Source: Epinephelus fuscoguttatus
Taxonomy: Eukaryota > Chordata > Actinopteri > Perciformes > Serranidae
Assembly (NCBI RefSeq): GCF_011397635.1
Contig: NC_064771.1
Location: 13,021,379-13,085,378 of the forward strand
Length of the DNA stretch: 64,000 nt
Direction of reading: 5' to 3'
Under the pieces are notes generated by a model, which saw only the letters and a program-made list of their open reading frames with translations, did no database searches and had not been told where the DNA came from. Shown in pieces: positions 253-3,200 of the stretch; position 1 is the stretch's first letter, and each line of letters opens with the position of its first letter. The translations under genes and the position numbers were made by a program.

Positions 253-3200
253 ATGCCTTACCACTGTGTGGCCTATGGATGTGGCAAAACTGCAGAAGAT
301 GGTGCGACGCTCTTTAAATTCCCCAAGGACCATGAGGAGTTTCGCAAATGGGAGAAGCAGGTCCAGCGCACCCGCAGCCAGTGGGTCGCCACACCCAACT
401 CTCACCTCTGCAGCGAGCATTTTGGCAGGGAGTACTTTGAGCCAAGAGCACCCATGGGGGCTCTGAAGCTAAAGCCAGGAGCTGTTCCCACAGTGTTCCT
501 CCGTCCACACTGTCTCTCCTGCAAAGGAGTGGGATGTAGTAGCTGCCTGCCAGCTATCCAACGGCGGGGCTTTACAGCTGAACCAAGAGAGTGTGCTGTA
601 AGTGTGAGTAGTTATTATTACGGAGAAAGGTCACTGCAGAGAGACAAAGAGAGTTTCTGCCATTCTGAGAGCTTTAAACAAACCTCTTGCTTGTTTACAT
701 GTATGATGTAAAGACACATTCAAGCTTTCCATTTATCACTGTGTTTTTTTCTCTTCTCAGGCACCAGACAATGAAATGCCCTTTCAGTTTGATGATACTG
801 ATGGAAGAGGTCATGAAGAACATCTGACAAGAGGAGTGACAAAGGCGGCGGAAAAAAACAGAGAAGAACGACCAGGTGAGGTGCAAATGATTAAACTGTA
901 TGTCCATTTTCTGTCTCTGTAATTAAATGCTATTTAAAGTCAAAGTCAAAATGAGTGATGGAAGGTCTCAGACGATGGTTCAAAATAAAATAAAAATCCC
1001 ATCAGTATAAACTGTAGGAACTGTGATAAAATTAAATGATGATTTATACTAAATGTGTTTACTTTATTATTTATTTTTACAGTGGTGTGTGAGATGTGTG
1101 GCACCGCCGGCACTAGTAGCAGCTTCTTTTCAAAGACCAAGCGTTTCTGCAGTATATCTTGTTCACGCTCTTATTCATCAAACTCCAAGAAGTCCTCCAT
1201 ATTGGCACGTCTGCAGGTGAGAAAAAATATGTGATGTTGCAGCACATAAACAATGCTGAATAATGAGTGTGTGTGCTGCCATGTTATGTAGGTGGCATCT
1301 CATGTAGAGGATGTATGAGTTTTATTTTTCACCCCAAATACTTCTTAAAAGCAAATATTTGTACTCTTTTACATAATGCACATTACAATATAAGCCATTT
1401 TTATTCTATACTGGGAATATTTGCTGAGCATAAACCTGTTTTTACAGCATTTCACACAGTAGGGCTGCAACTAATGATTATTTTTTATCGATAAATCTGC
1501 AGATGATTTTCTTGATTAACTGTCTGGGTTATAAAATGTCAGAAAATAGTGAAAAATTTCTGTCCCAGGTTCTCAAAGTCCAAGGTGATGACTTTAAATG
1601 TTTTGTTTCATTAGTCCAAAGCCTAAAGATATTCTGTTTAATATGACATTAAACAGAGAAAAGCAGATCAGTGTTTCTGAGATGCTAGAAACAGCATTTT
1701 TTCATACTTTAACAATTAATTGCTTATCAAAATAGTTTGTCATTTTCTGTTAATTGACTAATAGATTGGTCAACTTATTGTTTATGGTCTAACTCACAGC
1801 TGTAATCTTTATTTTTTGAGTTAAACACACAAATAACAGGACTAACCGGACCACTAGGTGGCACCTATGAGGCATTTGTAGTTAATTGCTTTGCTAAATT
1901 AAATAATTACGCTAACTTGGCACTTTGGTTACTTTACACATTTTTTGACAAGGCCTTCCTCACACCGTCGTCTTTGTGTCTGTGATTTCATCAGGTCTGT
2001 CGACTGCACATACTAATGCTTTAGGTTAGTTATAGTTGATACTGTTTGTATTCAGGGTTAGTGTTGTTTTCCAAACCCATAGCTTCATAAATAACTTATT
2101 ATACAGAAAGGTGGTAGATTTTTGACATAAGCATTTCTTTCTGCCGCACTTTGATTGCTGCTTGGCCACTGACGGAGTCCACTTGCGGAGAAGCAGTGAT
2201 GGGGTTTTCTCTCTGACATTTCCCTTCAGCAGTCTTCGTCCAGCTGCTCTAATTTCACAACTCCTGTCCTTCCTCTTGAGGTGCAGACAGAAGCTTCCCT
2301 TCTCGTCCTTTTCTTCATGCTCCTTCACTTCCCCTCTTTACTGCTAGCAACACAGCCACTTTTGTTCCTGTTCCTCTCAGAGAGTAGACTGTGGAGGCTC
2401 CTGTGAAGCTTCTGTGGCCCTCTAATGTCCAGCAGATGTTCTGCGCAGCCAGCTTGGAGCACTTGACGCCTTTGCTCTTTTAAGCACCTCCATCAGCAAA
2501 TCTATAGTATAAGCAACAGCGTCTCTTGGAACAATTTCAGTACAACAAAATCTTTTTCATCACAATCACATTGATGTTTTTAGCAGTGCACAGTGTCGAC
2601 ACTGACCCTAATAAGAACATTGATACTTCAGGTTTACACGCAATCAAAATCAGCAATGCATATCTTTCTCCACAGGTCCAAGCACAGAGATTAAATGAGT
2701 ACATATAGTTATGAACGAGTACAAAACAATGTGAAATACTACATATTGTCCAGACTTAAAGGGAACTGCCTTTTTACTGAAAAGCATCAGGATTAAGCCA
2801 CGTTTGATTTTTTTGTGATTACTCGTGCTTCATTGGTCATTGAAGAAAATATCTGTCAAAAAAACAGTGCCACTATTCTGGTGTGATTTGTTGAGACTTG
2901 AACATTTTTCGTATGGTTAGAGTTTGGTTTAGGTTTGCGTGTCATATATTCCTATAGGCTGCAACTAGCAACAGTTTTTACATTTAATTTAGATTAATTA
3001 ACCAATCCTATTTTCTAGAAAAATGTCCATTTTAATTTCCTAAAGACAAGGGTGATGTCTTCAAGTTGCTTGTTTTGTCTGACCAATAGTCATAGTCACC
3101 CAGACATATTTTTAGTTCAATGTCTTACAAGACAGGAGAAGAAAAGCATTTGGTGGAGCTATATGGTATGGAGGTGTAATGCATTCACTTTAGGAAAAAA

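Follow-up and report, generated by a model that had tools for sequence, protein, structure and literature searches.

A predicted THAP domain at the N-terminus of L3MBTL2 in the fish Epinephelus fuscoguttatus

The L3MBTL2 gene and its neighbours

We analyzed a stretch of 64,000 nucleotides from Epinephelus fuscoguttatus (contig NC_064771.1, positions 13,021,379 to 13,085,378), hereafter the window. Exon joining combined with Pfam searches yields an open frame of 17 exons and 856 residues on the plus strand, which runs from a THAP domain (residues 5-82) through an FCS zinc finger (residues 154-184) to four MBT repeats. The first exon, E1 (253-597), carries the ATG and a complete THAP domain, as indicated by Pfam, by a match to PDB structures, and by coding-like codons; it comprises 115 codons from the ATG at 253, which 252 bases of the window precede, and ends at a GTAAGT donor at 598. 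E2 (761-875) is a linker exon of 38 residues with a strong donor, for which phase 0 is the sole open phase; it enters in phase 0 and leaves in phase 1. E3 (1083-1216) encodes the FCS finger (Pfam zf-FCS_1, E 1.3e-15), entering in phase 1 and leaving in phase 0. E4-E17, which encode the four MBT repeats and the C-terminus, follow on the same strand in a single open frame (7106-7181, 7498-7577, 7869-7986, 8576-8710, 8947-9035, 9182-9428, 9689-9759, 11322-11426, 11571-11718, 11875-11957, 12072-12306, 13867-13932, 14068-14226, and 14320-14684). A sequence-only reading had placed the first three exons at these positions and had them joining in phase; our model agrees on both points and adds 14 exons.

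Splice sites in the window were scored at 4293 AG sites and at GT sites with matrices entered by hand. By these matrices, the acceptor of E2 is the top-scoring of all 4293 AG sites. The donor of E1 (597) is modest, falling in the top 5.4% of GT sites and ranking second lowest among the 16 donors of the model; a second in-frame donor, at 603, scores slightly higher. The two overlapping donors (GTAAGT/GTGAGT, 598-608) lie 6 nt apart and are both in frame, and forms of the protein with and without two residues (VS) are possible.

Among PDB structures, the MBT part has its best match in human L3MBTL2 (3cey, E 1.5e-199); MBTD1 (5e-169) and Sfmbt (1.4e-134) score lower. The FCS exon agrees with the FCS finger structure solved for L3MBTL2 (2w0t). 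By these comparisons, the MBT part is that of L3MBTL2. A search of the whole genome (1.047 Gb) with the MBT part as query found near-identical MBT exons at this locus only; the next relatives, on C19 and C20, are at most 77% identical in the last MBT repeat and 74-76% identical in the FCS finger. Judging from the exon model and these searches, it is very likely that this fish has one L3MBTL2 gene and that the gene encodes a THAP-FCS-4xMBT protein.

The FCS finger and four MBT repeats are common to the fish protein and to mammalian L3MBTL2, a subunit of PRC1.6. The C-terminus of the fish protein holds SUMO-type motifs (PKTE at 727, VKVE at 741, and LKQE at 766), of a type also linked to human L3MBTL2. 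The fish protein differs in its N-terminal THAP domain; the mammalian N-terminus is acidic and is not known to carry a THAP domain.

Downstream of the gene lie open reading frames that by eye are CHADL-, RANGAP1-, ZC3H7B-, and TEF-like, genes that stand in the same order on human 22q13. Upstream lies a gene that by eye is EP300-like; it occupies the minus strand between about -35 and -10 kb and is oriented head to head with L3MBTL2. In human, EP300 and L3MBTL2 are neighbours on the same strand.

The THAP exon and the start of the gene

The THAP domain of E1 matches Pfam PF05485 over its full length (positions 1-87 of 87) with an E-value of 4.6e-17 and 63 bits against a curated cut-off of 23.9. 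THAP domains share the C2CH signature C-x2-4-C-x35-53-C-x2-H, and the zinc-ligand spacing in E1, C-x4-C-x42-C-x2-H, fits it. The full-length match and the signature bear out the earlier claim that a complete C2CH THAP domain precedes the FCS finger and the four MBT repeats. Only two of the 333 window ORFs of at least 60 aa fit a THAP-like pattern, E1 and a second THAP exon described below, and both are THAP by Pfam. The nearest PDB structures to E1 are THAP1 and THAP2 (E 3e-7 to 6e-7); human THAP1 and THAP2, like the fish exon, have a complete N-terminal C2CH THAP domain, but they have no MBT repeats or FCS finger. A search of the fish protein for an HCF1-type motif, [DE]HxY, found none. An AF2 model of E1 alone, made without an alignment, reached a pLDDT of 41, too poor for reading the fold.

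Codon use in E1 is also coding-like. Of 2000 stop-free pieces of intron, only 0.45% reach the score of E1, the pieces being 150 nt long and E1 itself 345 nt, and the unspliced run-on at 598-708 is intron-like (34% of 2000 pieces score as high). By this measure, E1 stands out more than E2 (2.9%) or the certain FCS exon (6.9%) does. The THAP domain of E1 has 31 other matches in the genome at E up to 1e-3, the strongest only 38% identical, which argues that it is not a recent transposon copy. In viral contigs, 11 pattern matches to the N-terminus and three to the MBT part were obtained, none of them confirmed.

We read 40 kb upstream of the window. CpG-rich windows occur on the side of the EP300-like gene (-10.4 to -9.6 kb). 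From there to E1, the sole CpG-rich window is a weak one at -599 to -200 (observed/expected 0.82, 11 CpGs per 400 nt, 37% GC), with a CRE at -427 inside it. Rfam searches of the 10 kb upstream gave no match. The stretch between 598 and the FCS exon holds no window above the same CpG threshold, the highest being 801-1200 (observed/expected 0.60, 8 CpGs).

The position of this patch bears on the alternative that the sequence-only reading had named as the main one, a separate THAP gene with read-through. Such a gene would be short, consist of E1 and perhaps E2, and end in the intron before the FCS exon, and the joined frame would reflect chance or rare read-through. E2 can run on for 15 codons into its intron to a stop at 920-922, two AATAAA motifs (984 and 989) follow in the intron before the FCS exon, and THAP genes are plentiful in this genome. 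However, the FCS exon requires an upstream exon of phase 1, which E2 supplies, and a separate gene is also made less likely by the CpG-rich patch lying 5' of the THAP exon with none between the THAP and FCS exons. We consider a separate THAP gene improbable; it is weakened by phase and by the position of the patch, and the two AATAAA motifs remain in its favour. The fusion that had been proposed is strengthened by the one open frame, by the single copy of the gene, and by the nearest promoter-like patch lying immediately 5' of E1; its splicing is predicted from DNA.

On the plus strand, 145-252 is probably the 5' UTR portion of the THAP exon; the acceptor before 145 scores 10.7, in the top 0.6% of AG sites by the same matrices. 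The simplest transcript would run from an upstream UTR exon to 145-597 and on through E2 and the FCS exon to the MBT part.

Within this region, 145-214 is an exon-like piece with a GTGAGT donor at 214 (score 6.5) that could let a transcript bypass the THAP start codon. As a coding exon we rejected this piece, as its single open frame (147-214) leaves in phase 2, which suits neither E2 nor E3; its Fer4 matches fall below the curated cut-offs. Given the scores of this donor and of the acceptor at 145, the THAP exon could be optional, with a UTR exon ending at 214 spliced to E2 and a THAP-less L3MBTL2 made from an internal ATG of E2 (776). Against this, the first ATG in E2, at 771, lies in another frame, and the in-frame ATG has a poor context, and we rate an optional THAP exon as marginally less probable still than a separate THAP gene.

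Other THAP exons in the genome

The second THAP exon in the window, THAPb, lies at 4258-4584 on the plus strand (Pfam THAP E 1.4e-15) and has a phase-0 donor scoring 8.3. It sits in the intron between the FCS exon and E4, under a CpG island at 3801-4800 (observed/expected 0.75-1.13 in four overlapping 400-nt windows), and the frame stays open when it is joined to E4, both being phase 0. The same intron contains a diverged tandem array at 3364-3944 with A+T-rich units about 70 nt apart. A first look at the genome gave 1036 candidate relatives of THAPb, 150 of which were scored; among the matches listed, the strongest one apart from THAPb itself has 48% identity and the most similar one 52%, and none besides THAPb reaches 53%.

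THAPb is a possible alternative first exon or a possible nested THAP gene. As a first exon it would give rise to a THAPb-MBT protein without the FCS finger. Its own CpG island and the match between its phase-0 donor and E4 are consistent with this, as is the acceptor of E4, the best of those listed from 3.9 to 7.2 kb. But phases would match by chance in about one case in three, acceptors nearer than E4 exist, and the very many relatives of THAPb make a nested THAP gene at least as likely; we regard the first-exon reading as doubtful, though less so than the two alternatives considered above.

We also looked for THAP domains at genes for E2F6, another PRC1.6 subunit. A search of the genome with E2F domains led to 16 places, from which we chose two E2F6-like genes, both on C11 (31.15 and 1.20 Mb), and one E2F gene on C17 (40.33 Mb). 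For each E2F gene, about 20 kb covering the locus and its 5' side was scanned with a THAP profile, with the two MBTD1-type genes, the C19 and C20 relatives, as comparison; these two and the C17 E2F make up the only three controls. The profile was seeded with the two window THAP domains and five of 14 genome loci, the other nine misfitting the pattern. At E up to 5, the scan gave 10 matches, the two window exons included.

Both E2F6-like genes on C11 appear to start with a THAP domain divided between two exons, whose halves join in phase 0. Singly, the four half-exons are weak (E 0.0022, 0.0036, 0.05, and 0.077), and only the joined halves match strongly (Pfam E 6.5e-14 and 1.4e-12). The four further matches are L053 (E 0.012), L046 (C11:1.20 Mb; E 2.7), and two in the window (E 3 and 4.6). 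The first of these, at 2323-2439 of L053, is a short ORF resembling a first THAP half that lies a long way 5' of the E2F6-like gene at C11:1.20 Mb. In a comparison with human E2F1, E2F4, and E2F6, whose sequences were entered by hand, the C11 genes agree best with E2F6. Open chains lead from the THAP domain to the DBD in both genes, 36 in one and 22 in the other, so the middle exon is ambiguous.

The E2F on C17 has a DBD nearest to E2F1 and a CC-MB nearest to E2F6 among these three human E2Fs, and no THAP domain was found in the roughly 20 kb scanned at and 5' of it; possibly it is a THAP-less E2F6-like gene. The two MBTD1-type genes share the FCS-MBT body of L3MBTL2, and the scanned stretches 5' of their FCS exons (14 kb on C19 and 19 kb on C20) contain no THAP domain. 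In the PDB comparison, which covered the C19 copy, the last MBT repeat of the C19 gene is nearest to MBTD1.

Zebrafish E2F6 is itself said to be a THAP protein (THAP-E2F6), reportedly described by Clouaire and colleagues in 2005. There, too, a THAP domain is joined to the N-terminus of a PRC1.6 subunit, but the subunit is a different one. The two also differ in gene structure, the THAP domain of the E2F6-like genes in this fish occupying two exons and that of L3MBTL2 one. E1 is 24-28% identical to the E2F6 THAP domains (20/82 and 21/75) and 26% identical to THAPb, and THAPb is 35-36% identical to the E2F6 THAP domains. Because E1 is no closer to the E2F6 THAP domains than to THAPb, the THAP fusions of L3MBTL2 and E2F6 are, on these identities, separate events or very old. 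Given that low identity, the E1 domain need not read the same DNA as they do. As predicted from these exons, two PRC1.6 subunits, L3MBTL2 and E2F6, carry diverged THAP domains in this genome.

A proposed role in PRC1.6 targeting

Supposing that fish L3MBTL2 belongs to PRC1.6, we propose how its THAP domain could act there. Transcription would start at the CpG-rich patch, and the RNA would be spliced into the exon at 145 and then on to E2-E17. In the protein, the THAP finger would contact a short motif in DNA and the MBT repeats would bind histone tails, and L3MBTL2 would thereby help to keep PRC1.6 at selected promoters through DNA sequence, alongside MGA/MAX and E2F6/DP. Together with THAP-E2F6, PRC1.6 would carry THAP readers on two subunits. 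The sequence-only reading had contrasted such a DNA contact of L3MBTL2 itself with reliance on the partners E2F6 and MGA; this needs a rider, as the two E2F6-like genes here also appear to carry THAP.

Taken as a whole, a THAP-FCS-4xMBT L3MBTL2 that steers PRC1.6 through DNA is the reading we favour, with fair confidence; the steering role is less certain than the fusion itself. The fusion could also be real with the THAP domain binding protein, as a dimer or with a partner, rather than DNA. E1 has diverged from the solved THAP domains (best E 3e-7), as this would allow, but its zinc ligands and VPT box are all retained, and we think protein binding rather unlikely.

Where PRC1.6 binds in human cells is influenced by MGA, E2F6, and L3MBTL2 alike, and L3MBTL2 has been proposed to stabilise MGA/MAX via histones (PMC5806899). 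In C. elegans, the MBT protein LIN-61 and the THAP proteins LIN-15B and LIN-36 are described as repressors of the synMuv B class (PMC3297578, PMC8552245), and LIN-61 and LIN-15B act partly on different targets (PMC3297578). The worm has THAP and MBT on separate proteins, whereas fish L3MBTL2 would have both in one chain. By this parallel, which we suggest for the worm THAP and MBT repressors, the pairing could reflect an old partnership that fishes keep in one protein and that mammals lost or hand to partners; we offer this tentatively and would not put it at even chances.

We found no paper on a THAP-L3MBTL2 in the open-access literature, where most subscription journals are missing. A term search found 'THAP' nowhere in the text of PMC7230241, PMC9916924, PMC5806899, and PMC3297578, and once, within the reference list, in that of PMC5963868. 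Fish gene models may already contain the fusion without remark.

The way PRC1.6 reaches its target genes is understood only in part, with MGA, E2F6, and L3MBTL2 each contributing in human cells (PMC5806899). The predicted THAP domains on L3MBTL2 and on E2F6 suggest that such fingers help to steer this silencing complex to its genes, and would make PRC1.6 targeting directly testable in fish. A THAP-L3MBTL2 would also tie vertebrate PRC1.6 to the THAP proteins among the worm synMuv B repressors. To us, the most interesting side of the finding is that two subunits of one complex would bear THAP fingers.
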